Part shown: piece after piece, positions 39,639 through 63,420 of the stretch
How positions within the stretch are numbered: position 1 is the first letter of the stretch
Layout of the letters: each line of letters starts with the position of its first letter
DNA from: Azonexaceae bacterium
GTDB taxonomy: Bacteria > Pseudomonadota > Gammaproteobacteria > Burkholderiales > Rhodocyclaceae
Assembly: GCA_013335535.1 (NCBI GenBank)
Contig: JAAXVL010000008.1
Coordinates: 1-64,000 of the forward strand
Direction of reading: 5' to 3'
Length of the DNA stretch: 64,000 nt
The notes under the pieces: generated by a model
What the model was told of the DNA's origin: nothing
Databases searched by the model: none
Seen by the model: the letters and a program-made list of their open reading frames with translations, nothing else
Program-made: the position numbers and the translations under genes

Positions 39639-43205
<3,567 letters not shown>

Positions 43206-49770: not shown

Positions 49771-51003
49771 ATGCGCATAGCCGTCATCGGTGGCGGCTGG
49801 GCTGGCCTTGCCGCCGCGGTCGAGCTGACTGCCGCGGGGGCTGAAACCACGCTGTTCGAAGCCGGCCGCATACTCGGCGGCCGGGCGCGAGGCGTTAACA
49901 TCGATGGCCACCAGCTCGACAACGGCCAGCACATCCTGCTCGGCGCCTATCGCGACGCGCTGGCGCTCATGCGCCGGGTTGGCGCCGATCCCGACGAATG
50001 CTTTGACCGTCGCCCACTGCAGGTCGTCGACAACACAGGCTTTCGCCTAGCGCTACCCAAACTGCCGGCACCGCTCAATGTCGCCTGGGGTCTGCTCAGC
50101 GCCCGCGGAGTCAGCCTTGGCGAAAAGCTCCGAACCGCGCTGTGGATGGATGGCATCAAACGCCGGGGGTTCAAACTGGCCAGCGAAACGACCGTTGCCC
50201 AATGGCTGGACGACGCCGGTCAGACCGGCGCCTTGCGCCGCCACCTGTGGGAGCCGCTCTGCCTCGCTGCACTGAACCTGCCGGCCGAACGCGCCTCGGC
50301 GCAGTTGTTCGCCAACGTACTGCGCGACAGCCTGGGCAGTTCGCGCCGCGCGGACACCGATTTGCTGCTGCCCCGCGTCGATCTCGGCCGACTGCTGCCG
50401 GAGCCGGCCGGACAGTGGCTGCAGGCCCATGGCGCGCAAATCCGCTTGAGCACACGAGTCAGCCAGATCATCCCGACTGAAAACGGCATCGACATCGACG
50501 GTGAAACCTTCGCCGCCGCCATCATCGCCACCGCCCCGCAGCATGTCGGCGCCCTGTGGCCGGCGGCAGCCACGGATTACACCTACGAGCCGATTGCCAC
50601 GGTCTACCGGAATTTTGAGCCAAAAATGAAATTGCCGTTCCCGCTGAGCAACCGCCTCGGCGGCCATTGCCAGTGGGTGGTTGATCGCGGCGATGGCGTG
50701 CTGGCGTGCGTCCTGAGCGGACACGGCGAGTGGGAAAAGCTGGATGACGCGGCGCTGGCTGCCACGCTCGACCAGGAACTCGGCTGGCCAAATCCGACCG
50801 GCTGGCAAAAAGTCATCCGCGAAAAACGGGCTACTTTCTCGGCCATTCCCGGCCTGCATCGCCCCGATGCACGAACGAACGACCCGCGTGTTTTCCTGGC
50901 CGGCGACTACACCTGGGCGGATTACCCGGCCACGCTCGAAGGCGCCGCCCGCAGCGGGCTGCGCGCAGCGCAACTGGCGATGGCAGTCCACCGCCCGCGC
51001 TGA
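49771..51003 (+). CDS. hpnE: Hydroxysqualene dehydroxylase HpnE
   Basis: A 410-aa FAD-dependent amine-oxidase-like enzyme. The N-terminal FAD motif is RIAVIGGGWAGLAAAVELTA, and the family blocks DNGQHILLGAYRDAL, CQWVVDRG and the C-terminal FLAGDYTWADYPATLEGAAR are present. It starts four bases after hpnD. Residues about 275-289 (ATVYRNFEPKMKLP) are encoded by a segment (50593-50636) matching the dispersed ~40-bp repeat found between other genes; the protein length is not changed. Confidence 0.93.
   Translation: MRIAVIGGGWAGLAAAVELTAAGAETTLFEAGRILGGRARGVNIDGHQLDNGQHILLGAYRDALALMRRVGADPDECFDRRPLQVVDNTGFRLALPKLPAPLNVAWGLLSARGVSLGEKLRTALWMDGIKRRGFKLASETTVAQWLDDAGQTGALRRHLWEPLCLAALNLPAERASAQLFANVLRDSLGSSRRADTDLLLPRVDLGRLLPEPAGQWLQAHGAQIRLSTRVSQIIPTENGIDIDGETFAAAIIATAPQHVGALWPAAATDYTYEPIATVYRNFEPKMKLPFPLSNRLGGHCQWVVDRGDGVLACVLSGHGEWEKLDDAALAATLDQELGWPNPTGWQKVIREKRATFSAIPGLHRPDARTNDPRVFLAGDYTWADYPATLEGAARSGLRAAQLAMAVHRPR
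50593..50636 (-). repeat. Dispersed ~40-bp repeat, copy inside hpnE
   Basis: Read on the minus strand it contains AAAATTCCGGTAGACCGTGG followed by CAA, against the intergenic consensus TCCGGTTGACCGTGG. It retains the flanking TTTCATTTTTGGC part as well. The copy is inside an intact coding sequence and keeps the frame. Confidence 0.6.
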
Positions 51004-51088
51004 ACCAGCCCCATCGCTCAAGGCACTTGAGCCGCATCAACGCCCAACATGCTGCTCCGAATCAGAATACGATGGCACGGTTCCCGTG

Positions 51089-52831
51089 ATGGATGCGCCG
51101 ATGAGACCATTGTTGATTCGCAAGTCGCCTGTTGATTCGCCCTCGGCGGCGAATGGTGCCACGTTCTCGTGGGAACAGATCCGCCGCGAGCTTGGCCTAT
51201 CCGCCGATGGCCCAATCAACATCGCTCAACTGGCCGTCGATCGCCATGCCCTCTCGGCCATTGCCGACAAAACTGCATTCCGCTTCCTGGGTGCCGATGG
51301 CAACACGCGCAACCTCAGCTACCGCGAACTCGCCAGCCTGACTGACCGTTTCGGCAACGCCCTCAAGTCGTTGGATGTACAGAAGGGCGAACGCGTTTTC
51401 GTGCTCTGTGGCCGCATCTGCGAACTTTACGTCGCCGTGCTCGGCGCGCTCAAGATCGGCGCCGTCGTCTCACCGCTTTTCCAGTCCTTCGGCCCCGAGC
51501 CGATTCGCGGCCGCATCGCCCAGGCGGCCGGCAAAGTGCTGGTCACGACGGCCAGCGCCTATCAACGCAAAGTCGCCCCGCTCCGCGCCGAACTTCCCAC
51601 ACTCCGCCATGTGCTGCTGGTCGATGACCTGGGTAGCGGCGCCATTGCCGATACGGTGGACCTGCACGCTCTGCTCCGCGCCGCTCCCGATACCCCGGCG
51701 CTCGTGACAACCCGCGCCGAAGACCCGGCCCTGCTGCATTTCACGAGCGGCACGACCGGCCAGCCCAAGGGCGCGCTCCACGTCCATGGCGCCGTCTTGA
51801 CCCACTACACCACCGCCCGCAGCGCCCTCGACCTGCGCCCCGACGACGCTTTCTGGTGTACGGCCGATCCAGGTTGGGTGACCGGCACCTCGTACGGCAT
51901 CATTGCGCCGCTGGTGCTTGGCGTGACGAGCATCGTGGACGAGGCCGACTTCGACCCGCTGCGCTGGATCGACATTCTCGAAACCCAGCAGGTCAATGTC
52001 TGGTACACCGCGCCGACGGCCATCCGGCTGCTCATGAAAGCCGGGCTGGAACTGTTCGCCGGCCACCATTTCCCCGACTTGCGTTTCATCGCCAGCGTCG
52101 GCGAGGCGCTCAACCCGGAAGCTGTGTGCTGGGGCCAGGAGGCATTCGGCCACCCGATCCACGACAACTGGTGGCAGAGCGAAACCGGCGGCATCATGAT
52201 CGCCAACACCGCCGCCCAGGACATCAAACCCGGTTCGATGGGTCGCCCTTTGCCGGGCATCACCGCCCACGTCGTCCGCCACCAGGAAGGCGAACCGGTG
52301 ACGCTGATCGCCCCCCCCGACACGGTCGGTGAACTGGCGCTGGAAGCCGGCTGGCCCTCGATGTTTCGCGGCTATCTCGACCAGCCGGCGCGCTACCGCG
52401 AGTGCTTTGCCGGCAATCTCTACCTGACCGGCGATCTGGTCCGACGCGACGCCGACGGCTACTTCTGGTTCGTCGGCCGCAGCGACGATGTGATCAAGTC
52501 ATCCGGCCATCTGATCGGCTCGTTCGAGGTCGAGAGCGTGTTGATGGAACACCCGACGGTCGCCGAGGCCGGCGTCATCGGCAAGCCGGATGCGCTGGCC
52601 GGCGAGCTGATCAAGGCCTTCGTCGTTCTCAAGCACGACATCGTACCAAGCGAAGACCTGCGCCTTGAACTGATGGCCCACGCCCGCCGTCGTCTCGGGG
52701 CGGCCGTAGCGCCCAAGGAAATTGCATTCACGCCATCGCTGCCACATACTCGTAGCGGAAAAATAATGCGCCGGCTCCTCAAGGCAAGGGAACTCGGACT
52801 GCCCGAAGGCGACAGTTCGACGCTGGCCTGA
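51089..52831 (+). CDS. AMP-forming acyl-CoA ligase (acetyl-CoA synthetase-like, AcsA type)
   Basis: A 580-aa ANL-superfamily ligase. The P-loop is LLHFTSGTTGQPKGALHVHG, the WWQSETGG block is A5-like, the hinge is YLTGDLVRRDADGYFWFVGR, and the catalytic Lys (about 556) lies in PHTRSGKIMRRLLK, a PxxxxGK site of the kind acetylated by Pat enzymes. The start at ATG 51089 is by homology; upstream the frame lies within hpnE. Downstream, within 22 bases, are an acyl carrier protein and a GNAT enzyme, so the ligase may load an acyl group onto that carrier. Acetate or another short acid is likely. Confidence 0.85.
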   Translation: MDAPMRPLLIRKSPVDSPSAANGATFSWEQIRRELGLSADGPINIAQLAVDRHALSAIADKTAFRFLGADGNTRNLSYRELASLTDRFGNALKSLDVQKGERVFVLCGRICELYVAVLGALKIGAVVSPLFQSFGPEPIRGRIAQAAGKVLVTTASAYQRKVAPLRAELPTLRHVLLVDDLGSGAIADTVDLHALLRAAPDTPALVTTRAEDPALLHFTSGTTGQPKGALHVHGAVLTHYTTARSALDLRPDDAFWCTADPGWVTGTSYGIIAPLVLGVTSIVDEADFDPLRWIDILETQQVNVWYTAPTAIRLLMKAGLELFAGHHFPDLRFIASVGEALNPEAVCWGQEAFGHPIHDNWWQSETGGIMIANTAAQDIKPGSMGRPLPGITAHVVRHQEGEPVTLIAPPDTVGELALEAGWPSMFRGYLDQPARYRECFAGNLYLTGDLVRRDADGYFWFVGRSDDVIKSSGHLIGSFEVESVLMEHPTVAEAGVIGKPDALAGELIKAFVVLKHDIVPSEDLRLELMAHARRRLGAAVAPKEIAFTPSLPHTRSGKIMRRLLKARELGLPEGDSSTLA

Positions 52832-52853
52832 GGTGGAACGCAGGGGAGAGAAA

Positions 52854-53120
52854 ATGAGTCAGCAGCAAGAACACATCCGCGCGGAAGTGCTCGCCATCGT
52901 CAAGCGCCTGGCCCCGGAAATCGATCTGGCGAAGATCATCGCCGACAAGCCGCTGCGTACCCAGATCGACCTCGACTCGATGGACTGGCTCAACGTGCTG
53001 GCCACCATCCACGAGAAGCTGGGTGTCGATATCCCGGAAACCGACTACGGCAAGGTCCAGACCCTCGACAGCATCGTCATCTACCTGACCGGAAAAATGC
53101 CCGCCGCCGGGCAGGAGTAG
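52854..53120 (+). CDS. Acyl carrier protein (phosphopantetheine-binding)
   Basis: An 88-aa four-helix carrier protein. The phosphopantetheine Ser is in TQIDLDSMDWLNVLATIHEK, the usual DSL/DSM context. The ATG at 52854 is preceded by GGGGAGAG; a GTG seven codons earlier is less likely. It sits between the ligase and GNAT genes and is not the fatty-acid AcpP (no fab neighbours). Confidence 0.88.
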   Translation: MSQQQEHIRAEVLAIVKRLAPEIDLAKIIADKPLRTQIDLDSMDWLNVLATIHEKLGVDIPETDYGKVQTLDSIVIYLTGKMPAAGQE

Positions 53121-53123
53121 ATC

Positions 53124-53651
53124 GTGGCCGACTATCCAGCCGAACTCGTCCGCAACCGCTTTCTGTTCGACGGCAGCCCGGTCACCATCCGTCCCATCCG
53201 CGCCGACGACAAGCCGATGGAACAGGATTTCGTCCAGCATCTTTCGGCCGATTCGCGCTACAAGCGCTTCATGTCCACGCTGAAAGAATTGCCCCCCGGC
53301 AAGCTCAAGTACCTGACCGAGATCGACTACGTCCGTCACCTGGCGCTGGTCGCCATCATCCAGCGCGACGGGCAGTACGTTGAAATCGGCGTGGCGCGCT
53401 ATGTCGCCAACCCCAATGGCGACGATTGCGAATTCGCCATCGCCATCGACGACGCCTGGCAGGGCAGCGGCGTCGCCGGCATCCTCATGCTGACGCTGAT
53501 CGACGCCGCCCGGGCGCGCGGCATGCAGAAGATGGAAGCCTTCATCCTGGCTTCCAACGACAAGATGATCAAATTCGCCCGCCAGCTCGGCTTCGACGTC
53601 CGCCGCGACCCCGACGACCCGGGCATGATGCACGCGGTGCGATCGCTGTAA
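53124..53651 (+). CDS. GNAT-family acetyltransferase of the ligase-ACP cassette
   Basis: A 175-aa GNAT enzyme; the acetyl-CoA pyrophosphate loop is near DAWQGSGVAGILM. It begins with GTG after CAGGAG. It resembles the C-terminal GNAT domain of the large synthetase at 57059-59770 (shared TIRPIR, SRYxRFM, TEIDY/TQIDY, IGVARYV, Q.SGV). It may be a protein acetyltransferase acting on the neighbouring ligase, or it may take acyl groups from the carrier protein; both are inferences from linkage. Confidence 0.85.
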   Translation: MADYPAELVRNRFLFDGSPVTIRPIRADDKPMEQDFVQHLSADSRYKRFMSTLKELPPGKLKYLTEIDYVRHLALVAIIQRDGQYVEIGVARYVANPNGDDCEFAIAIDDAWQGSGVAGILMLTLIDAARARGMQKMEAFILASNDKMIKFARQLGFDVRRDPDDPGMMHAVRSL

Positions 53652-53670
53652 AAACCTCGGCCAACCGGGC

Positions 53671-53710
53671 TTGCCACGGTCAACCGGAAAAAATGGCCAA
53701 AATTGAAAGG
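53671..53710 (-). repeat. Dispersed ~40-bp repeat, intergenic copy
   Basis: It lies between the convergent GNAT and ybbA stops. The minus strand reads CAATTTTGGCCATTTTTTCC then GGTTGACCGTGGCAAG. It is one of three intergenic copies and contains no hairpin or T-run, so it is not a terminator. Confidence 0.75.
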
Positions 53711-53712
53711 TT

Positions 53713-54387
53713 CTAGCCAGCCAATCGCCCGGACTGAATGCGCAGCACACGTCCGCAGCGGGCGGCGATGGCTTCGTCGTGGGTGACGAGCAGCAGGGTC
53801 GTTCCCTGTTTCGCATTCAGTTCGAACATCATGTCGATGACCTGCTGGCCGGTCGCCGCGTCGAGATTGCCGGTCGGTTCGTCGGCCAGCACCAGTTGCG
53901 GATTCGGGGCGAAGGCGCGGGCCAGGGCAACGCGTTGCTGCTCGCCGCCGGACAGATGCTTCGGGTAGTGTTTGAGGCGATGGCTCAGGCCGACGCGTTC
54001 GAGCCATTCGCTCGCGGCAGCGCCCGACTTGCCTGAACCGGCCAGTTCCAGCGGCAGCATGACGTTCTCCAGCGCATTGAGCGAGGGTAGCAACTGGAAG
54101 GACTGGAAGACGAAGCCGAGCAGACGGCCACGCAATTTGGCGCGCTGGTCTTCGTCGAGCGAATTGAGCGAAACGTCGTCGAGCCGGACCTCGCCAGCCG
54201 TCGGCAAATCGAGCCCGGCGAGCAGCCCGAGCAGCGTCGATTTGCCGGAACCGGAGGCGCCGACAATCGCCACGGTTTCACCCGGCATGACCGAAAAGGA
54301 AATATCCTGCAGAATCGTCAGCGGTTCACCGCCGTTATCGACGGTTTTGCCCAGTCCCAGCACTTCAATTACCGGTTTCCCTGCCAT
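53713..54387 (-). CDS. ybbA: ABC transporter ATP-binding protein, YbbA/LolD-like
   Basis: A 224-aa ATPase from the ATG at 54387 (MAGKPVIEVLGLGKTV). It has Walker A GASGSGKS, signature HLSGGEQQRVALARA, Walker B LVLADEPTG and switch His in LLVTHDEA. Its start codon overlaps that of tesA on the other strand (CATG). The ybbA-tesA divergent arrangement is known from enterobacteria, where the permease ybbP follows ybbA; here the gene after it is on the other strand and no permease is present in the window. Confidence 0.88.
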   Translation of the reverse strand: MAGKPVIEVLGLGKTVDNGGEPLTILQDISFSVMPGETVAIVGASGSGKSTLLGLLAGLDLPTAGEVRLDDVSLNSLDEDQRAKLRGRLLGFVFQSFQLLPSLNALENVMLPLELAGSGKSGAAASEWLERVGLSHRLKHYPKHLSGGEQQRVALARAFAPNPQLVLADEPTGNLDAATGQQVIDMMFELNAKQGTTLLLVTHDEAIAARCGRVLRIQSGRLAG

Positions 54388-54988
54388 GCGCTTCGCTCTC
54401 TTCCTGTTTGCCCTGCTCTTCACCGCCACACCTGCCCTGGCCGCCAAGACCATCCTGGTCATGGGCGACTCCCTGTCAGCCGGCTACGGCATCCAGACGG
54501 ACCAATCCTGGCCGTCGCTGCTTGACAAGCGTCTGGCCGAAAAGCGCCTCGATTATAGCGTTGCCAACCTGTCGATCTCCGGCGAAACCACAGCCGGCGG
54601 ACGCTCGCGCCTGCCGCAGGCGCTGATCACCCACAAGCCGGCCATCGTTGTCATTGCGCTCGGTGCCAACGACGGCCTGCGCGGCCTGCCGCTCGGGCAA
54701 ATGCGCGACAATCTCAACGCCATGATCGACGCCTCGCGTGCCACAGGCGCCCGGGTCGTGCTCGCCGGCATGCGCCTGCCGCCCAACTACGGGCCTTATG
54801 CGGCCGACTTTTTCGGCAGTTTCAAAAGCATCGCCCAGGCCAAGAAAACGCCGCTCGTCGACTTCCTGCTTGAGCCGCTCAACACCAAGCCACAGCTTTT
54901 CCAGGCCGACAACCTGCACCCGCTGGCCGCAGCCCAGCCATTGATCCTCGACCACGTCTGGCCGACGCTGGCACCACTGCTAAAATAG
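54386..54988 (+). CDS. tesA: Arylesterase / lysophospholipase TesA
   Basis: A 200-aa periplasmic SGNH hydrolase. It has a signal peptide ending ALAA (about 1-20), block I VMGDSLSAGYG with nucleophile Ser29, block II SGETTAGG, block III GANDGLRG and block V DNLHP (Asp/His). It hydrolyses thioesters, aryl esters or lysophospholipids. Its ATG overlaps the start of ybbA on the opposite strand, so its promoter lies inside ybbA. Confidence 0.93.
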   Translation: MRFALFLFALLFTATPALAAKTILVMGDSLSAGYGIQTDQSWPSLLDKRLAEKRLDYSVANLSISGETTAGGRSRLPQALITHKPAIVVIALGANDGLRGLPLGQMRDNLNAMIDASRATGARVVLAGMRLPPNYGPYAADFFGSFKSIAQAKKTPLVDFLLEPLNTKPQLFQADNLHPLAAAQPLILDHVWPTLAPLLK

Positions 54989-54992
54989 CCGG

Positions 54993-56054
54993 ATGAAGCA
55001 TAACCGCCCCACCGTGGCCGATCTCGCGGCCTACGACGAGATCATCGACGTCCGCACCCCGGCCGAATTTGCCGAAGATCACATCCCCGGCGCCATCAAC
55101 TGCCCGGTGCTCGATAACGAGCAACGCATCCAGGTCGGCACGATCTACAAGCAGGTATCGCCTTTCGAGGCCAAGAAGATCGGCGCCGCGCTGGTTTCGG
55201 AAAACATCGCCAGGCATCTGAAAGAACGCTTCCTCGACCGGCCGAAAAGCTGGAAGCCGCTAATCTACTGCTGGCGCGGCGGCGACCGCAGCGGTTCGAT
55301 GACCACCGTTTTCAAAGCGATCGGCTGGCATGCCGGGCAACTCGATGGCGGCTACAAGGCCTGGCGCAGCCACGTCATCACCCGGCTTGAAGCGTTGCCC
55401 CAGCACTATCGTTTCACCGTCATCTGCGGCGCCACCGGCAACGCCAAGACGCGCATCCTGCAAGCCATCGGCGAGCTCGGTGAACAGATTCTCGATCTCG
55501 AAAACCTGGCCAATCACAAGGGCTCGGTCCTCGGCGTCCTGCCCGATTCGCCGCAACCCTCGCAAAAAGGCTTTGAAACGGCCCTGATGCTCGCCCTTGC
55601 CGCCCTTGATCCGACCCGTCCGGTCTATGTCGAGGCGGAAAGCCGCAAGATCGGCAACCTACACGTGCCCGAGGCCATGATCGCCCGCATCCGCAACGGC
55701 GAATGTGTCGCCGTCGAGGCCACGCTCGACGCCCGCGTCGCCTTCCTGCTCAAGGATTACGACTATTTCCTGACCCTCCCGGCGTTTCTCGGTGAACGTC
55801 TCGATGTCCTGCGCTCGCTGCAAAGCCGCGAAACGATGGCGCGCTGGCAACAGTTCATCCTGGACGCCGACTGGCCGACGCTGGTCCGCGAACTGCTCGA
55901 ACTGCATTACGACCCGCTCTATCGGCGCTCGCAGGAGCATAACTTCGCCGGCATGCCGGATTCCGGCAAGTTTTCGACCGACGATTTGTCGGAAGATGGC
56001 ATCAAGCAGCTGGCCGCCGCCATCGTTCACTCACGGACGGCGCAGATGGCCTGA
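54993..56054 (+). CDS. mnmH: tRNA 2-selenouridine synthase
   Basis: A 353-aa enzyme that converts 2-thiouridine in tRNA to geranylthio- and selenouridine. An N-terminal rhodanese domain (1-130) has its Cys in LIYCWRGGDRSGSM, and a P-loop follows near residue 147 (CGATGNAKTRIL). The P-loop reads GATGNAKT, with Ala in place of the last Gly of the usual GxxGxGKT. The rest is typical (LGVLPDSPQPSQKGFETAL). It starts four bases after tesA. Confidence 0.92.
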   Translation: MKHNRPTVADLAAYDEIIDVRTPAEFAEDHIPGAINCPVLDNEQRIQVGTIYKQVSPFEAKKIGAALVSENIARHLKERFLDRPKSWKPLIYCWRGGDRSGSMTTVFKAIGWHAGQLDGGYKAWRSHVITRLEALPQHYRFTVICGATGNAKTRILQAIGELGEQILDLENLANHKGSVLGVLPDSPQPSQKGFETALMLALAALDPTRPVYVEAESRKIGNLHVPEAMIARIRNGECVAVEATLDARVAFLLKDYDYFLTLPAFLGERLDVLRSLQSRETMARWQQFILDADWPTLVRELLELHYDPLYRRSQEHNFAGMPDSGKFSTDDLSEDGIKQLAAAIVHSRTAQMA

Positions 56055-56566
56055 CGCATGGCCGGCTTCGGGCTGGCCGTGTAACCTTCCTCGAAGGCGA
56101 TTTCGCGCAAGCCGGCCGCCTGTGCCACCTCACGCAACTCGCCCGGGCGGAGTAAGAAGGCGGGACTCGACGGCTTGCCATAAGCCTCGTTACCCCGCAT
56201 GAAGGTCTCGTAAATCAGCACGCCACCAGACGCCAGCATGGCCAGCACGTCGGGCAGGCGCGGTCGCCACAGGTAGTTGGTGACGACGATGCCATCGAAT
56301 GTTCGGCCAGCCAGCGGCCAGTCGTCGCCCTCAAGATCGGCCTGCATCGCGGAAATTCCCGGTACCGCCTGCAATTGCAAAATTGCCTCAAAATCCCGGT
56401 CGACCGTGGAAACCTCGAATCCGAGCCCGGCCAGCAATCGGGCGTGGCGCCCGCTGCCGCAAGCCAGATCGAGCACGCGTCCACCCGGCGCAATCCGCCC
56501 GCAATGGCGTTCCACCCAGGGCGATGGCGGTATGATTTGCGGCAATTCATTCAAGGAGTCGGTCAT
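56027..56566 (-). CDS. SAM-dependent methyltransferase
   Basis: A 179-aa class I methyltransferase (TehB-like size). Motif I is GGRVLDLACGSGRHARLLAG, followed by VSTVDRDFEAILQL and a motif VVTNYLWRP. It is convergent with mnmH, overlapping its end by 28 bases. The start overlaps the OsmC start on the other strand. Residues around VSTVDRDFEAILQLQ are encoded by a segment (56378-56413) with 28 of 36 bases matching the dispersed repeat. Substrate unknown. Confidence 0.85.
   Translation of the reverse strand: MTDSLNELPQIIPPSPWVERHCGRIAPGGRVLDLACGSGRHARLLAGLGFEVSTVDRDFEAILQLQAVPGISAMQADLEGDDWPLAGRTFDGIVVTNYLWRPRLPDVLAMLASGGVLIYETFMRGNEAYGKPSSPAFLLRPGELREVAQAAGLREIAFEEGYTASPKPAMRQAICAVRE
56378..56413 (+). 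repeat. Dispersed ~40-bp repeat, copy inside the methyltransferase gene
   Basis: It reads CAAAATTGCCTCAAAATCCC then GGTCGACCGTGGAAAC. Against the intergenic copy at 60165 it has 28 of 36 identical positions, including GACCGTGGAAAC without a change. It lies in the strand between motifs I and II of the enzyme. Confidence 0.55.
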
Positions 56567-56969
56567 GTCGGGGGTTGTTGTCGCGGAAAATGGTCAGGGA
56601 AGATACCAGCAGGCAGTCACCGTCGGCCAGCATCGATTGATTGCCGACGAGCCGGTCAGCGTCGGTGGTGCCGATGCCGGCCCGGCGCCTTTCGATTTCG
56701 TCATGGCCGGACTCGGCGCCTGCACCTCGATGACACTGCGCATGTATGCCGAACGCAAGGGACTCGCGCTGACCCACATCAGCGTCGCACTAAGCCACGC
56801 AAAAATCGAGGTCGACGGCGTTTCCCGCGACCGCATCGAACGCACCATCCACCTCTCTGGCGAGCTCACCACCGAACAGCGCCAGCGCCTGCTCGAGATC
56901 GCCAACAAATGCCCGGTACACCGCGCCCTCTCGTCATCGCTGCTCATCGAAAGCGCCCTTGCCACATAG
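56565..56969 (+). CDS. OsmC/Ohr-family protein
   Basis: A 134-aa OsmC-like peroxidase-fold protein. The two redox Cys are in GLGACTSMTLRMY and NKCPVHRAL. The AAGGAG five bases before the ATG at 56565 marks the start. OsmC/YhfA-type proteins reduce organic hydroperoxides. The divergent methyltransferase begins on the same CATG. Confidence 0.9.
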   Translation: MSGVVVAENGQGRYQQAVTVGQHRLIADEPVSVGGADAGPAPFDFVMAGLGACTSMTLRMYAERKGLALTHISVALSHAKIEVDGVSRDRIERTIHLSGELTTEQRQRLLEIANKCPVHRALSSSLLIESALAT

Positions 56970-57058
56970 GGAATAACCCTATAACCCCAATGACAATGGA
57001 CGGGGGTTGTGCCAGAATTCCGCATTGCACAAAAATATATCCTGACTAGGGGTTTGCC

Positions 57059-59770
57059 ATGTTGGAACAGCACTATTTAACCTCGCTTTTCGAACCGAAA
57101 TCGGTCGCTGTCATCGGTGCATCAGACCGTGAAAACTCGGTCGGCAACATCATCTTCAAGAACATCCTGAGCTCGGGGTACAAGGGCCGCCTGTACGCCA
57201 TCAACCCGAAGCACGACACCATTCAGGGCCAGCAGTCCTACAAGTCGATTGAGGAAATCGGCGCCCGCGTCGAAATGGCCGTCATCTGCACCCGTCCGCA
57301 GACTGTCCCGCAATTGATCGAGCAATGTGGACGCTCGGGCGTGCGCAACGCTATCGTCATCGCCGCCGGCTTTTCCGAAGCCGGCCACATCGGCGCTGCG
57401 CTCGAGCGCAAGGTCATGGAAATCGCCCGTTCCTACAACGTGCGCATCCTCGGCCCCAACTGCCTGGGCATCATCCGCCCCGATCTCGGCCTCAACGCCA
57501 CCTTCACCAAGATCACCGCCAAGCCGGGCAATCTTGCCCTCGTTTCGCAGTCCGGCGCCATGTGTTCCGCCGTGCTCGACTGGGCCAAGGCCAATGACGT
57601 CGGCTTCTCGTCAGTCATTTCCATCGGCATGACGGCCGACGTCGATTTCGGCGAAATCCTCGATTACCTGATCTACGACAGCCGCACGCACTACATCCTG
57701 ATGTACGTCGAAGGCATCCGTAACGCCCGCCGCTTCATGAGCGCCCTGCGTTCCGCCGCCCGCATCAAGCCGATCATCCTGCTCAAGGCCGGTCGCCATG
57801 CCGCCGGCTCGGCCGCCGCGTCGACCCACTCGGGCATGGCTGCCGTTTCCGATACCGTCTTCGACGCCGCCGTGCGCCGCGCCGGCGTGGTTCGCGTCCA
57901 GAACGTCGGCCAGCTCTTCTATGCCGCCAAGGCCCTCGCCTCGAAATTCCGCCCGATGGGCAACCGTCTCGCCATCATCACCAACGGCGGCGGGCCGGGC
58001 GCCATGGCCGCCGACCGGGCAGGCGACATGGGCATTCCGCTGGCCGAGTTGTCCAACGAAACGATGGCCGTGCTCAACAAGGCACTACCCACCAACTGGT
58101 CGCACAGCAACCCGATCGACATCGGCGGCGACGCGACACCGGAACGCTACCGCGACGCCATCATGGCCGTCACCCACGATGCTGGCGTCGACAGCACGCT
58201 GGTCATGCTCTCGCCGCAGGCCATGACCGACCCGCTGGCTGTCGCCCAGGCCATCATCGAAGTCGCCGACAAGCTCAACCGTTCGCTGATCTGCTGCTGG
58301 ATGGGCGAAGACCAGGTGCGCGAAGCGCGCAACCTGCTCGAAAGCGCCGGCATCCCGGCTTTCCGCATGCCGGAAACGGCGATCGAGCTGTTCCACCATA
58401 TTTCCAAGTACTACCGTAACCAGAAGCTCCTGCTGCAAACGCCGGAACCGACGCGCCAGCACGGCCGGCCGGAAGCCGAAGGCGCCAAGATGCTGATCGA
58501 GGCTCTGCTCGCCGAACGCCGCAAGGTGCTGTCGGAAATGGAATCCAAGGCCATCCTGCGCGCCTTCAAGGTACCGGTGGCGCAAACCATGGTCGCCCGC
58601 ACGGCAACCGAGGCATTGCTGCTCGCCGAACAGATCGGCTTCCCGATCGCCATGAAGGTCGATTCGCCGGACTTGCCGCACAAGTCCGACGCCGGTGGCG
58701 TGCGCCTCAACATCACCAACGCACCAGCTGTCCGCAACGCCTATCACGACATTATCGATACCGTGCAAAAGCGCCACCCGAGCGCCAAGATCAATGGCGT
58801 CTCGATCGAGCCCTTCCTGTCGCGCCCGAATGGCCGTGAAGTGATGATCGGTGTCTTCCGCGACCCGATCTTCGGGCCGGTCATCACCTTCGGTGCCGGC
58901 GGTTTCGACGTCGAAATCTTCAGCGACCGCTCGGTGGCCCTGCCCCCGCTCAACGAATTCCTGGCCAAGGATCTGATCGATTCGACGCGTGCCTCGATCA
59001 TCCTCGACCAGTTCCACAACATGCCGCCGGTCGACCGCGCCGCCCTCAAGGAAGTGCTGTTGTGCATTTCCGAAATGGTCTGCGAGCTACCGTGGATCCA
59101 GGAACTCGACCTCAACCCGCTGATCGTCGATGAAAACGGTGCGATTGCCGCGGATGCCCGCATCGTCATTGATCACGCTGCCAGCTCCTCGGGCGACCGT
59201 TACGCCCACATGTCGATCTATCCCTACCCGGTGCATCTGATCCAGGAATGGCAGATGAACGACGGCAAGGTCGTCACCATCCGCCCGATCCGCCCGGAAG
59301 ACGCGGAACTGGAGCAGGAATTCGTCAAGGCGATGTCCGACGAATCACGCTACTACCGCTTCATGGACACCTTGCGCGAGCTGACCCAGACCATGCTGGT
59401 CCGCTTCACCCAGATCGACTACGACCGCGAAATGGCACTCGTTGCAACCATCGCCAAGCCCAATGAGGACGGTGTCGACGAAGGCAAGGAAGAACAGATC
59501 GGCGTGGCGCGCTACGTTGGCAATCCGGACGGCGAGTCGGTCGAATTCGCGCTGGCCGTCGGCGACGACTGGCAGAAGTGCGGCGTCGGCCGCAAGCTCA
59601 TGACGGCGCTCATCGAATGCGCGCGCACCAAGGGCTACCGTGCCGTGGTCGGCGACGTGCTGTCCACCAACGCCAAGATGTTCCGCCTGATGACCAGCCT
59701 CGGCTTCACCATCCATCCGCACCCGGACGACACCGCCGTCAAGCGCGTCGTCAAGCCGCTAACGGGCTAA
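57059..59770 (+). CDS. ADP-forming acyl-CoA synthetase fused to a GNAT domain (Pat-like)
   Basis: A 903-aa fusion. A CoA-binding Rossmann domain (8-100, PKSVAVIGASDRENSVGNII) is followed by a ligase-CoA domain with the phospho-His region SAAASTHSGMAAVSD. An ATP-grasp domain begins near KAILRAFKVPVAQT, and a C-terminal GNAT domain (about 735-900) contains KVVTIRPIRPEDAEL and GDDWQKCGVGRKLM. Salmonella Pat, which acetylates acetyl-CoA synthetase, has this architecture but lost the His; here His is kept, so synthetase activity is possible as well as protein acetylation. Confidence 0.88.
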   Translation: MLEQHYLTSLFEPKSVAVIGASDRENSVGNIIFKNILSSGYKGRLYAINPKHDTIQGQQSYKSIEEIGARVEMAVICTRPQTVPQLIEQCGRSGVRNAIVIAAGFSEAGHIGAALERKVMEIARSYNVRILGPNCLGIIRPDLGLNATFTKITAKPGNLALVSQSGAMCSAVLDWAKANDVGFSSVISIGMTADVDFGEILDYLIYDSRTHYILMYVEGIRNARRFMSALRSAARIKPIILLKAGRHAAGSAAASTHSGMAAVSDTVFDAAVRRAGVVRVQNVGQLFYAAKALASKFRPMGNRLAIITNGGGPGAMAADRAGDMGIPLAELSNETMAVLNKALPTNWSHSNPIDIGGDATPERYRDAIMAVTHDAGVDSTLVMLSPQAMTDPLAVAQAIIEVADKLNRSLICCWMGEDQVREARNLLESAGIPAFRMPETAIELFHHISKYYRNQKLLLQTPEPTRQHGRPEAEGAKMLIEALLAERRKVLSEMESKAILRAFKVPVAQTMVARTATEALLLAEQIGFPIAMKVDSPDLPHKSDAGGVRLNITNAPAVRNAYHDIIDTVQKRHPSAKINGVSIEPFLSRPNGREVMIGVFRDPIFGPVITFGAGGFDVEIFSDRSVALPPLNEFLAKDLIDSTRASIILDQFHNMPPVDRAALKEVLLCISEMVCELPWIQELDLNPLIVDENGAIAADARIVIDHAASSSGDRYAHMSIYPYPVHLIQEWQMNDGKVVTIRPIRPEDAELEQEFVKAMSDESRYYRFMDTLRELTQTMLVRFTQIDYDREMALVATIAKPNEDGVDEGKEEQIGVARYVGNPDGESVEFALAVGDDWQKCGVGRKLMTALIECARTKGYRAVVGDVLSTNAKMFRLMTSLGFTIHPHPDDTAVKRVVKPLTG

Positions 59771-59810
59771 GACTCAGCTCCCGCGCCGGCCAGCCCGGCG
59801 CGCAGGCAAA

Positions 59811-59839
59811 CAAAAAGCCGGTCAGCGACCGGCTTTTTT
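59811..59839. terminator. Bidirectional intrinsic terminator
   Basis: AAAAAGCCGGTC-AGC-GACCGGCTTTTTTT is a perfect stem with A and T runs on each side. It serves the synthetase gene (plus) and the DUF3460 gene (minus), which converge here. Confidence 0.92.
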
Positions 59840-59860
59840 TCGACTGAAACCTTGCAGCGA

Positions 59861-60070
59861 TTATTCGCCGAAGAAATTCACGTCATAGGGATAAGGCTTC
59901 TGCGCCACCTTGGAACCGGCATTGCGGGCCGTGGTGTCGACATCCTGCTTCTTGTCCCACCACAGGGCGCGACCGACCTTCTGGTCTTCGACCCACTCGG
60001 GATGCTTTTCGAGTTGCTCGTTCATCCAAGTTTGGTGATCGGACACGTAGCTCGTATTGACGTCAGCCAT
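59861..60070 (-). CDS. DUF3460 family protein
   Basis: A 69-aa soluble protein (YVSDHQTWMNEQLEKHPEWV; RALWWDKKQDVD; KPYPYDVNFFGE). This is the compact DUF3460 family found mainly in betaproteobacteria; function unknown. It is downstream of hflX in the same direction, with a dispersed-repeat copy between them. Confidence 0.88.
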   Translation of the reverse strand: MADVNTSYVSDHQTWMNEQLEKHPEWVEDQKVGRALWWDKKQDVDTTARNAGSKVAQKPYPYDVNFFGE

Positions 60071-60164
60071 TTCGCTGCTTCCTCAAGATATTCAAGACAA
60101 TGCCGCGATTCTAGCATGGCTCGCGCCGGATGCTGCCTCGCAACGCTGAACAGCCATGGGGAGG

Positions 60165-60205
60165 CTTTTCAATTTTGGGCAAAAATTCCGGTTGACCGTG
60201 GAAAC
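60165..60205 (+). repeat. Dispersed ~40-bp repeat, intergenic copy
   Basis: It lies between the DUF3460 start and the hflX stop. It reads CTTTTCAATTTTGGGCAAAA then ATTCCGGTTGACCGTGGAAAC. This copy is close to the consensus of the others and is used here as the reference. Confidence 0.75.
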
Positions 60206-60221
60206 GCGTGGAAATCGCCCA

Positions 60222-61592
60222 TCACGCCTCCGTAAGAGCAGACGGACCGGCCAATCGGTCGCGCAATGCCTCGATGGCAGCGCTGTCGCCTCGAACCGTG
60301 AAGAAAGCACCGGCTTCATCGGCCCGTTCGTCGAGCACCTCGCAACTGGTAAAAATATCCTTGCGCAACTGCTGCGCCGACCACGGCAGGAACAGCTCAG
60401 CCTCGACATGATCACGCTGGAAAAAGGCGATGATCTGGAGGCGCAGCGCGGCCACGTCATCCGGCTGGCGGGCGCTCATCACCACGCAGTCCGGGTACAT
60501 CGCCCGCAAGTTCGCTGCGCACTCGGCCTGCGCGGCGGCATCGCCGACGTGGTCGATCTTGTTGAAGATGCGCAGGCGCGGCACGACATCGGCGCCGATT
60601 TCTTCGAGCACTTTGTCTGTCACTTCGAGCTGACGCTCGAAACCGGGGTCGCTGGCATCAATGACGTGGAGCAGCAAGGAGGCATCGAGCGCCTCATCGA
60701 GCGTGGACTTGAACGAAGCAACCAGGCCGTGGGGCAGATTCTTGATGAAACCGACCGTATCGCTGACCAGCACGCGCGGTACGCTGTCCGGATAGAGGGC
60801 GCGGACGGTGGTGTCGAGCGTCGCGAACAGCTTGTTGGCGACCAGCACTTCGCTGCCGGTCAGCGCCCGCATCAGCGTGGATTTGCCGGCATTGGTGTAA
60901 CCGACGAGCGCGACAGCGGCCTGGCTCTGGCGTTCCTGGCGGCGGGCGCGCTGCGTCTTGCGCTCGGCTTCCATGGCGAGGATTTCGAGCTGCAGTTCGG
61001 CGATGCGATCGCGGATCTTGCGTTTGTCGAGTTCGGTATGCGACTCGCCAGCCCCACGACCGCCAACGCCGCTGCGCTGCCGCCCCTGCGAACCGGCCAG
61101 CTTGGCCGCTTCGCGCAGACGCGGCGCCATGTAGCCGAGGCGGGCGATTTCCACCTGCGCCTTGGCCGCCCGCGAGCGGGCATTGCGATGGAAGATTTCG
61201 AGGATGACCATGGTCCGGTCCATGACCTCGCAACCGGCCTCGATTTCCAGATTGCGCGCCTGCGACGGCGAAATTTCGTGATCGACGAGAATCGCTTCGA
61301 TCTCCGGCAAATTCGCCTCGGCCAGCGACAGCACCTCGTCGCCCGCCTCGTCAAAAATCGGCTCGCCATGCACGAAAGCGCGTATTTCCTGCCGCTTGCC
61401 AACGCCCAGATAACCGGTCGTATCGAAGCTGTTGCGCTTCTGCACGAAGGTATGAACGACCTTGAAACCCAGCGTCTTGGCCAGCTCACGCAACTCCATG
61501 AGCGATGACTCAAACTCCATGTCACTCACGTTCGGCAGCTGCACGGCTGCGGCAACGGCCACCCTGAGTTTTTGCTCTACTTCCATCTGCAT
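60222..61592 (-). CDS. hflX: GTPase HflX (ribosome-associated)
   Basis: A 456-aa GTPase that splits stalled or idle ribosomes. The N-terminal domain (1-190) carries KVVHTFVQKRNSFDTTGYLG. The Gly-rich linker is GRQRSGVGGRGAGESHTELD, and the G domain has G1 ALVGYTNAGKSTLM, G3 SDTVGFI and G4 NKIDHVG. I place the start at ATG 61592 (MQMEVEQKLR); the frame is open far upstream but overlaps the divergent peroxidase gene. Unlike many relatives it has no hfq neighbour. Confidence 0.93.
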   Translation of the reverse strand: MQMEVEQKLRVAVAAAVQLPNVSDMEFESSLMELRELAKTLGFKVVHTFVQKRNSFDTTGYLGVGKRQEIRAFVHGEPIFDEAGDEVLSLAEANLPEIEAILVDHEISPSQARNLEIEAGCEVMDRTMVILEIFHRNARSRAAKAQVEIARLGYMAPRLREAAKLAGSQGRQRSGVGGRGAGESHTELDKRKIRDRIAELQLEILAMEAERKTQRARRQERQSQAAVALVGYTNAGKSTLMRALTGSEVLVANKLFATLDTTVRALYPDSVPRVLVSDTVGFIKNLPHGLVASFKSTLDEALDASLLLHVIDASDPGFERQLEVTDKVLEEIGADVVPRLRIFNKIDHVGDAAAQAECAANLRAMYPDCVVMSARQPDDVAALRLQIIAFFQRDHVEAELFLPWSAQQLRKDIFTSCEVLDERADEAGAFFTVRGDSAAIEALRDRLAGPSALTEA

Positions 61593-61736
61593 CCGAAAAT
61601 TTTTCTCTTGATTTGGCGAAGGCAGATAGTAACCGGCCAAGCCTTGATTGCTGGCATCGCTTGCGCCATTCAACACGTAAAATACCCCCCGCCGTCCTTC
61701 TGACACTGACTCCTCCGACCCCAAAACGAGATCGCC

Positions 61737-62285
61737 ATGAACGCTTCCCTGTACGACATCCCCCTCCAAAGCCTCGATGGGCGCGACCTGACGCTGGGTG
61801 ACTTCCGTGGCCAAGTATTGCTGGTGGTGAACGTCGCCTCCAAGTGCGGGCTGACGCCGCAGTACGCCGGGCTGGAAAGCCTGTTCAGGCAATATCGCGG
61901 GCGCGGCCTGCAGGTGCTGGGCTTTCCGTGCAACGACTTTGCTGCGCAGGAGCCGGGCTCGGCTGAAGAAATCATGAACTTTTGCACGGCCAATTTTGGT
62001 GTCGAGTTCCCGATGTTCGAGAAGCTCAATATCAACAGCGAACCGCGGCACCCGCTCTATGCGCAACTGATCGCCGCGCAGCCGGAAGCAGTGTTCCCCG
62101 CTGGCAGCGACTTTCGCGAGAAACTGGCCGCTTATGGCTGCTCGCCGAAACAGCCTGGCGATGTCTGGTGGAACTTCGAAAAATTCCTGATCGGCCGTGA
62201 TGGCCGGGTTGTACAGCGATTTTCGCCGGACACCACGCCGGACGACCCGACGCTGGTCGCCGCCATCGAAGCCGCACTCGCCTGA
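61737..62285 (+). CDS. Glutathione peroxidase family protein
   Basis: A 182-aa thiol peroxidase of the Gpx fold. Peroxidatic Cys37 is in VNVASKCGLTPQY, Gln in FPCNDFAAQEPGS, and Trp in VWWNFEKFLIGRDG. The loop reads CNDFAAQ where CNQFGGQ is most common. Such bacterial enzymes usually use thioredoxin. It is divergent from hflX, with a 144-bp shared upstream region. Confidence 0.93.
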   Translation: MNASLYDIPLQSLDGRDLTLGDFRGQVLLVVNVASKCGLTPQYAGLESLFRQYRGRGLQVLGFPCNDFAAQEPGSAEEIMNFCTANFGVEFPMFEKLNINSEPRHPLYAQLIAAQPEAVFPAGSDFREKLAAYGCSPKQPGDVWWNFEKFLIGRDGRVVQRFSPDTTPDDPTLVAAIEAALA

Positions 62286-62317
62286 ACCCCACCCCACAAC
62301 CGATAACAAGAAGATCG

Positions 62318-63343
62318 ATGCCCCGCACCCGCAAACCTGATGTCTGCCAGCCGACCGGCTCGGCCGAACTCGCCATGCTCGACGTTTACATGCCGATGAT
62401 GAAATCCTCGGCAATCATTTCAGCCGGACGGCTGGGCCTTTTCGAGGCGCTGGTCGATGGTCCGCTGACGGCAGAAGAACTCGCCACGAAGATCGATTCG
62501 AGCCTGCGCGGCACGACGACACTGGTCGATTTCCTGGTCGCCATCGGCTATCTGGAAAAGGAGGACGATGCCTTTGCCAACACGGCAAGCACCCAGCGCT
62601 GGTTCACCAGTGCCGGCCAGGTGGATTACACCCCCGGCCTGCTATGGACGCACGAAGCGTGGGCGATGATGGGCAGCCTGGCCGAAACCGTGCGCAAGGG
62701 CGAACCTGAGCAGACGCTGTGGGAAGCGATGATCGAAAAGCCGCATCTCGGCCCGCTGTTCTCATCCTACATGGGCGCCTTCGCCGCCGACCTCGGGCCG
62801 GACCTGATTGCGCATGTGCCGGTGGCACCGGACTATCGCCGCCTGCTCGACCTCGGCGGCTCGCATGGCCTGCATTCGATCCGCTTCTGCCAGCACTACC
62901 CGCAACTCGACGCCGTCATCGTCGACATGCCCAGCGCCCTGACCGAAACCGGACCGGAGATCGAGAAAGCCGGGCTGGCCGGCCGCGTCAGCCTGAGCCC
63001 CGGCACCTTGCAGGAACACGACTGGGGCGGCGCCAACGACCTCGTTTTCTACCTGTCGGTCGCCCATAACCATTCTGCCGAGGAAAATCGCCTGGCTATT
63101 CGGCAGATTGGCGAGTCGATGAATCCGGGCGGCCTGCTGGTCATACACGAATACCTGGCCGAAACCTCGCTCGACGCCCTGAACGCCGCCTTCCGCCTCA
63201 CGCTGCTGCTGGAAACCGGGACCCAGACGCACCGCCATGAGGACTATTGCGCATGGCTGACGGCGGCAGGGTTTTCGGCTATCGAACGGATCGACCTCGA
63301 ACCGCGTGAAAAAGGTTCGCTGATCCTGGCTCGGCGCACATGA
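62318..63343 (+). CDS. O-methyltransferase family protein (acetylserotonin-type fold)
   Basis: A 341-aa protein with an N-terminal dimerisation/winged-helix domain (AIISAGRLGLFEALVDGPLT) and a C-terminal SAM domain. Motif I is RRLLDLGGSHGLHSIRFCQH, and VIHEYLAE lies near the end. Members methylate small aromatic or carotenoid-like hydroxyls. The family's catalytic His appears as VAHNHSAEEN, with two His candidates. It starts 32 bp after the peroxidase gene. Confidence 0.85.
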   Translation: MPRTRKPDVCQPTGSAELAMLDVYMPMMKSSAIISAGRLGLFEALVDGPLTAEELATKIDSSLRGTTTLVDFLVAIGYLEKEDDAFANTASTQRWFTSAGQVDYTPGLLWTHEAWAMMGSLAETVRKGEPEQTLWEAMIEKPHLGPLFSSYMGAFAADLGPDLIAHVPVAPDYRRLLDLGGSHGLHSIRFCQHYPQLDAVIVDMPSALTETGPEIEKAGLAGRVSLSPGTLQEHDWGGANDLVFYLSVAHNHSAEENRLAIRQIGESMNPGGLLVIHEYLAETSLDALNAAFRLTLLLETGTQTHRHEDYCAWLTAAGFSAIERIDLEPREKGSLILARRT

Positions 63344-63380
63344 AGCGGTGGTTCCCGCTGGTACGGAAAAGACGGTAGCC

Positions 63381-63420
63381 AATTTGATTTTTGGCCGTTT
63401 TTCCAGTTGACCGTGGCAAC
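63381..63420 (+). repeat. Dispersed ~40-bp repeat, intergenic copy
   Basis: It lies 37 bases past the methyltransferase stop and reads AATTTGATTTTTGGCCGTTT then TTCCAGTTGACCGTGGCAAC. One base differs from the CCGGTTGACCGTGGCAAC form of the copy at 53671. Confidence 0.75.

Follow-up and report, generated by a model that had tools for sequence, protein, structure and literature searches.

A 39-bp sequence motif, with a consensus of approximately ATTTCAATTTTGGCCNTTTTTTCCGGTTGACCGTGGMAA, is repeated across the chromosome of an Azonexaceae bacterium, where it probably serves as a DNA uptake signal resembling the USS of Haemophilus and the DUS of Neisseria, having evolved independently of both; the features of the motif match the published description of these signals, and an uptake signal is the best explanation for it. 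The motif is abundant and has a defined form and distribution, it arose by point substitution in the two genes that were compared with their orthologues, it occurs in several dialects, and in the genomes sampled it is restricted to a single genus, in part of which it is scarce. With rather more caution, it appears likely that the motif represents a third independent system for the uptake of self-DNA, confined to one environmental betaproteobacterial genus, in which the signal is longer than in Haemophilus or Neisseria, receptor specificity lies in something beyond the presence of a ComP-family pilin, and half of the genomes are signal-rich while a third have close to none. The repeat had been noticed in a first-pass annotation of a 64,000-nucleotide stretch of this genome (the window), which read it as a chromosome-wide protein-binding site, as a mobile micro-repeat, or as a mixture of true copies and chance matches. 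That interpretation is partly supported, in that one of its three options stands, namely the protein-binding site, in favour of which the form of the motif speaks; the micro-repeat is contradicted at two in-gene sites, where orthologues carry no indel within the 39 columns, and the mixture is rejected, since controls gave 0 matches both for the window and over 800 kb. An uptake signal was not among the options.

The core proposed in that annotation, CCGGTTGACCGTGGAAAC, has 5 matches in the window when up to three mismatches are allowed, against a mean of 0.02 in shuffled sequences, and matches to it in the whole genome number 605 (300 and 305 on the two strands), compared with 2 for the same pattern read backwards. 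A 39-bp profile (51.8 bits) was trained on 77 copies, including five of the six in the window, and in the window it finds the six copies already reported and no more, with scores of 36-66 bits and 0 matches on Markov and reversed versions of the same sequence. Copies within genes are found in pheS (42459-42497, plus strand, 36.5 bits), in hpnE (50594-50632, minus strand, 53.4 bits) and in a methyltransferase gene (56374-56412, plus strand, 41.2 bits), with the gene on the opposite strand in each case. An intergenic copy is flanked by an acetyltransferase gene and by an ABC-ATPase gene, whose 3' end faces it (53671-53709, minus strand, 66.2 bits), another lies at 63381-63419 (plus strand, 50.4 bits), and a further copy, intergenic according to the first-pass annotation, at 60166-60204 (plus strand, 60.7 bits). 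All six copies, between and inside genes, are in this way confirmed, including the one in pheS, which had been put forward as a sixth candidate and is recovered although it is absent from the training set. Contig C1 has 97 profile matches at 10 bits or more in its first 400 kb, where Markov and reversed controls give none, and at a 12-bit threshold 188 copies are found in C1:1-800000, or one per 4.3 kb (reversed control 0), with 91 of these falling in the half of that region outside profile training. The repeat is genuine and chromosome-wide, and extrapolation from these 800 kb gives perhaps about 1,000 copies for the whole chromosome (4.25 Mb).

The edge of the motif is sharp, with little information beyond 39 bp, and its layout is that of a GC core, GGTTGACCGTGG, with two AT tracts upstream. 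Columns that are nearly A/T-only run from -16 to -13 and from -5 to -2, numbered from the first C of CCGG, so that the tract centres are 11 bp apart and some 11 bp separate the nearer tract from the core's midpoint. Across these eight tract columns, 291 of the 311 departures from the majority base are swaps between A and T and 20 are changes to G or C; because A and T are exchanged and G or C is rare, the tracts are read as a mark of groove-shape recognition and not of repeat decay. A 12-bp core is present in 98 exact and 72 one-mismatch copies (0 and 7 in the reversed control), a modest excess of exact over one-mismatch copies at a core length chosen by the analyst. The earlier statement that the repeat has no stem-loop holds for a single copy but not for three close, overlapping inverted pairs found elsewhere in the 800 kb, one of which was folded and forms a long hairpin of -54.7 kcal/mol (z=-9.85 and -9.24 for the two strands).

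When the replication origin is placed near C1:115 kb by parS-like sites and GC skew, the copies in C1:1-800000 show no overall orientation bias, with 86 of the 188 on the leading strand (p=0.27). Local unevenness between the strands, which is counted against the uptake reading, is seen at C1:0-60 kb, where the minus strand carries 17 of 20 copies, at C1:120-160 kb, where the plus strand carries 12 of 13, both bins having been picked after seeing the data, and along the right arm, with 94 minus and 64 plus copies. Each 100 kb of this region has 17-26 copies, at intervals more regular than random placement would give (gap CV of 0.69 versus 0.99), with none of 2000 simulations as even. By context, 60 copies are intergenic, where the expectation is 5.6%, 109 are genic and 19 partial; the gene calls behind these classes come from our own simple script, so the classes are approximate. 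Intergenic copies are closer to the consensus than genic ones (56 and 43 bits), and genic copies are spread over the six frames as 45, 22, 21, 14, 6 and 1, the single copy falling in the frame that gives the consensus a TGA. Gaps between convergent genes hold 21 copies in 9.7 kb, compared with 8 copies in 14.4 kb for divergent gaps (p=0.0005).

The origin of copies by substitution was tested at the two in-gene sites, in hpnE and the methyltransferase gene, and the intergenic site at 53671 was checked through its neighbouring genes. Among the loci fetched, 25 hpnE and 55 methyltransferase orthologues passed a filter of at least 45% identity and 80% coverage, and the columns of the motif span 39 bases in all 25 of the former and all 55 of the latter, whether motif-bearing or not; the methyltransferases of L129, L150 and L126 have indels beside the motif and none within it. 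Since the orthologues lack an indel in the motif, the hpnE and methyltransferase copies arose by point substitution. The first-pass annotation had held that its interpretation would fail if these protein stretches were conserved in species lacking the repeat, and half of this was found: the VDR part in the methyltransferase and the ATVY part in HpnE are largely conserved there, but an arginine of HpnE is not. Read from the DNA alignment, R follows VY only in our sequence and in L101, both of which bear the motif, and the residue in other orthologues is mostly L. The motif adjoins the end of the ABC-ATPase gene in six of the seven own-clade loci that contain this gene (L153 stops short of it and is outside the seven), and in L102 it is found beside the acetyltransferase gene instead; it is present at this gene end in none of the five motif-less loci with a near-complete gene (L103, L109, L136, L140 and L142).

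Positions 1-42458 of the window hold 0 copies where 10 would be expected, and they contain the 38 kb mobile element as delimited in the first-pass annotation, whose observation that the element is free of the repeat is upheld. A ~34 kb insert in comEC likewise has 0 copies against 7.9 expected. When plasmid records were searched with the consensus, 18 matched and none did so over 80% of the query. Three stretches of viral contigs contain an exact match to 18 bases of the motif, and of these two have two profile matches each and one has none; the former, the IMG/VR stretches L250 and L251, may be prophage flanks or motif-bearing phages of the genus.

Relatives were compared at 72 loci recruited by a window protein and arranged by a tree of that gene; to judge from record titles, these loci put the window in the Azonexus/Dechloromonas group. 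Most members of the nearest clade share the dialect of our genome, and L103 and L108 are without it in the DNA examined; L108 pairs in the tree with the motif-bearing L102, a possible recent loss. Several other clades of the tree are rich in related cores, and no such cores are found at the tree loci of the D. agitata clade. One locus, L161, from a record titled Desulfobulbus, groups inside Azonexus and is probably a mis-binned contig. In 300 kb of G029 and 100 kb of G030, related cores are the 10-mers with the strongest over-representation, and in the dialects of relatives AT tracts stand upstream of such cores at a like spacing. Profiles of these dialects have 41-217 matches and 1-6 in controls, leaving out the G014 profile, which drifted to a codon-period signal (808 matches against 51 in its control). 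A degenerate pattern was applied to 76 genomes of the Azonexus/Dechloromonas genus, our own included, some of them only 70% complete; 38 genomes gave at least 100 matches, 12 gave 15-99 and 26 stayed below 15, with controls at no more than 3 per genome. Low counts may partly reflect dialects that fall outside the pattern, to judge from L110 and L115, which have matches to the profile of our genome but few cores. In G016, G108 and G120, there are 351, 215 and 92 matches when the first tract is set 3 bases further upstream, which suggests dialects whose upstream AT tract is longer or displaced. In a sample of 250 genomes from the order, the three that belong to this genus have 558, 350 and 28 matches, and the 247 from other genera have at most 4 matches each.

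Comparison with known systems brings out a close likeness to the Pasteurellaceae USS, which, in the available portions of PMC1626085, also has a core with two AT-rich motifs on one side, at about single helical turns. The same portions describe USS and DUS as regularly spaced and without significant orientation bias, as favouring non-coding DNA with many copies nonetheless in coding sequence, as including some oppositely oriented pairs, and as having a strong consensus and being present in relatives, with variants of USS by subclade; USS were tested there and argued not to be insertions. Abundance, absence of orientation bias, regular spacing, preference for non-coding DNA with genic copies besides, inverted pairs, origin by substitution and dialects are all found in the present motif, and a strong consensus is found modestly. 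Narrow grooves in the AT tracts of USS, with an effect on uptake, are reported in the part of PMC7811141 available. Like the DUS of Neisseriaceae, as partly covered in PMC3630211, the motif has many copies, dialects among relatives and inverted pairs; the genome also has a pilin that matches the Pfam ComP_DUS family. The differences are also clear: the core GGTTGACCGTGG is unrelated to the USS cores AAGTGCGGT or ACAAGCGGT and the sequence is unrelated to DUS, which lack flanking AT motifs (PMC1626085, in part); the motif measures 39 bp, whereas USS reach up to 32 nt (PMC12616744, in part); and, unlike the Pasteurellaceae signal, it belongs to a betaproteobacterial genus and is known from sequence alone. 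At ~1 per 4.3 kb, its density is about a quarter of the ~1 per kb given for USS and DUS in the same portions of PMC1626085, and this lower density, together with the modest excess of exact cores, was counted against the uptake reading.

We infer a receptor, preferential uptake and a drive that spreads the motif. A surface receptor for DNA uptake by the type IV pilus would recognise the GC core and would also read the groove shape of the AT tracts, which lie roughly one and two turns of the helix upstream, so that free DNA bearing the motif would be preferentially taken up and recombined. An allele in which a point mutation improves the motif would be passed to other cells at a higher rate, and this more frequent copying is proposed to lead to accumulation in place wherever genes tolerate the motif; newly arrived elements would be without it. 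According to the available part of PMC12616744, such motifs are known only in Neisseriaceae and Pasteurellaceae, and our search of the open-licence literature found no paper on uptake sequences in Rhodocyclales or Rhodocyclaceae, Dechloromonas or betaproteobacteria, nor any on competence in the Azonexus/Dechloromonas genus; a wider search likewise gave none, and the three papers that a further one turned up concern Pasteurellaceae, going by their titles. The D. aromatica genome paper (PMC2907700), in the portions available, describes no such repeat and considers the organism likely to be transformationally competent, arguing from tra clusters and partition genes. If an uptake signal is indeed present, it would be the third such case, this one from environmental bacteria, and, since a single genus includes both several dialects and many relatives poor in the motif, would offer a natural series for how uptake signals arise, spread, change specificity and vanish; the receptor would be searchable by comparison, L103 and L108 being useful for finding the gene of the reader.

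The state of the competence genes was in part counted against the uptake reading. In our genome comEC is split near codon 254 by the ~34 kb element (C33:109611-143311; L171-L173), which begins with a large serine recombinase, and with comEC interrupted the strain may now be non-transformable. The comEC domain was matched in 28 of 29 genomes searched, our own included, and the state of the gene does not track the motif, also a point against: comEC is split in the motif-rich G007 and G018 and full length in the motif-poor G015 and G026. In G018 and in G017/G077, the latter two apparently a single genome, there are partial matches to PF03772 that begin at the same point of the profile (26-27) and may represent further insertions or assembly breaks. 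The pilin of our genome, which adjoins a FimT-like gene, matches Pfam ComP_DUS at 44.2 bits (cut-off 27.3), and a pilin of this family is present in 70 of the 76 genus genomes whatever their motif count, so that its presence shows no visible relation to that count and, unlike ComP, the specific receptor of Neisseriaceae, the family does not track the motif. A profile made from nine pilins of this family has its better match in a solved PilE (1.9e-15), ahead of the solved ComP structures (0.0004 and 0.0034). Net charge of the pilin did not differ between motif-rich (at least 100 matches, n=30) and motif-poor genomes (fewer than 40, n=19; p=0.71), in a comparison of 51 proteins from 53 genomes in which G125 and G027 were filtered out and counts of 73 and 78 omitted. 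Minor-pilin clusters in our genome and in regions of 10 relatives (L219-L228, L176) alternate between two layouts, with the ComP-like pilin either directly before fimT or last in a cluster that fimT begins, and neither layout tracks the motif among the matches listed, in which pilin genes are given for at least 11 relatives. The FimT-like protein of our genome was also considered as a receptor marker and has a match in 29 of 29 genomes, a strong one in only a few. At L174 (G000:C45 near 89388), a motif copy codes for the leader region of a type IV pilin-like protein, with the peptide FRPFFPVDRG just before GFTLVE.

That no link was found between the motif and comEC or the pilins leaves room for another reading, in which the motif is bound by a chromosome-organising (nucleoid-associated) protein with a need for roughly one site per 4 kb. 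Even spacing, the lack of an overall strand bias, a density that stays within 17-26 copies per 100 kb throughout the 800 kb and the swapping of A and T in the tracts would all suit such a protein, but a structural function would not be expected to leave 26 of 76 genus members with fewer than 15 matches, and a motif of 39 bp and roughly 50 bits is far more than nucleoid-associated proteins are known to require; this explanation is judged unlikely. That the motif acts in recombination or segregation, as Chi or KOPS do, seems very improbable. Chi in E. coli has a density similar to that of the motif, and the copies near the origin are locally co-oriented with replication, in bins picked after the fact; signals of this kind, however, are 8 bp long and have a strong leading-strand bias, whereas the motif is 39 bp long and, with 86 of 188 copies on the leading strand, neutral overall, which speaks against them.

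There is similarly little likelihood that the copies are regulatory sites or terminator elements. Such elements would account for the richness of convergent gaps (21 copies in 9.7 kb, as opposed to 8 in 14.4 kb of divergent gaps) and for the strong hairpin of the folded inverted pair, but 109 of the 188 copies are inside genes, only three inverted pairs occur among them, and the divergent gaps, which carry promoters, are the poorest per base, which also disfavours a promoter element. Hardly credible at all is a mobile micro-repeat, whether REP or MITE-like: high copy number and a sharp boundary agree with it, but the comparison with orthologues of two genes revealed no insertion within the motif, as a REP or MITE would require, and the departures in the tracts are A/T swaps instead of general decay.
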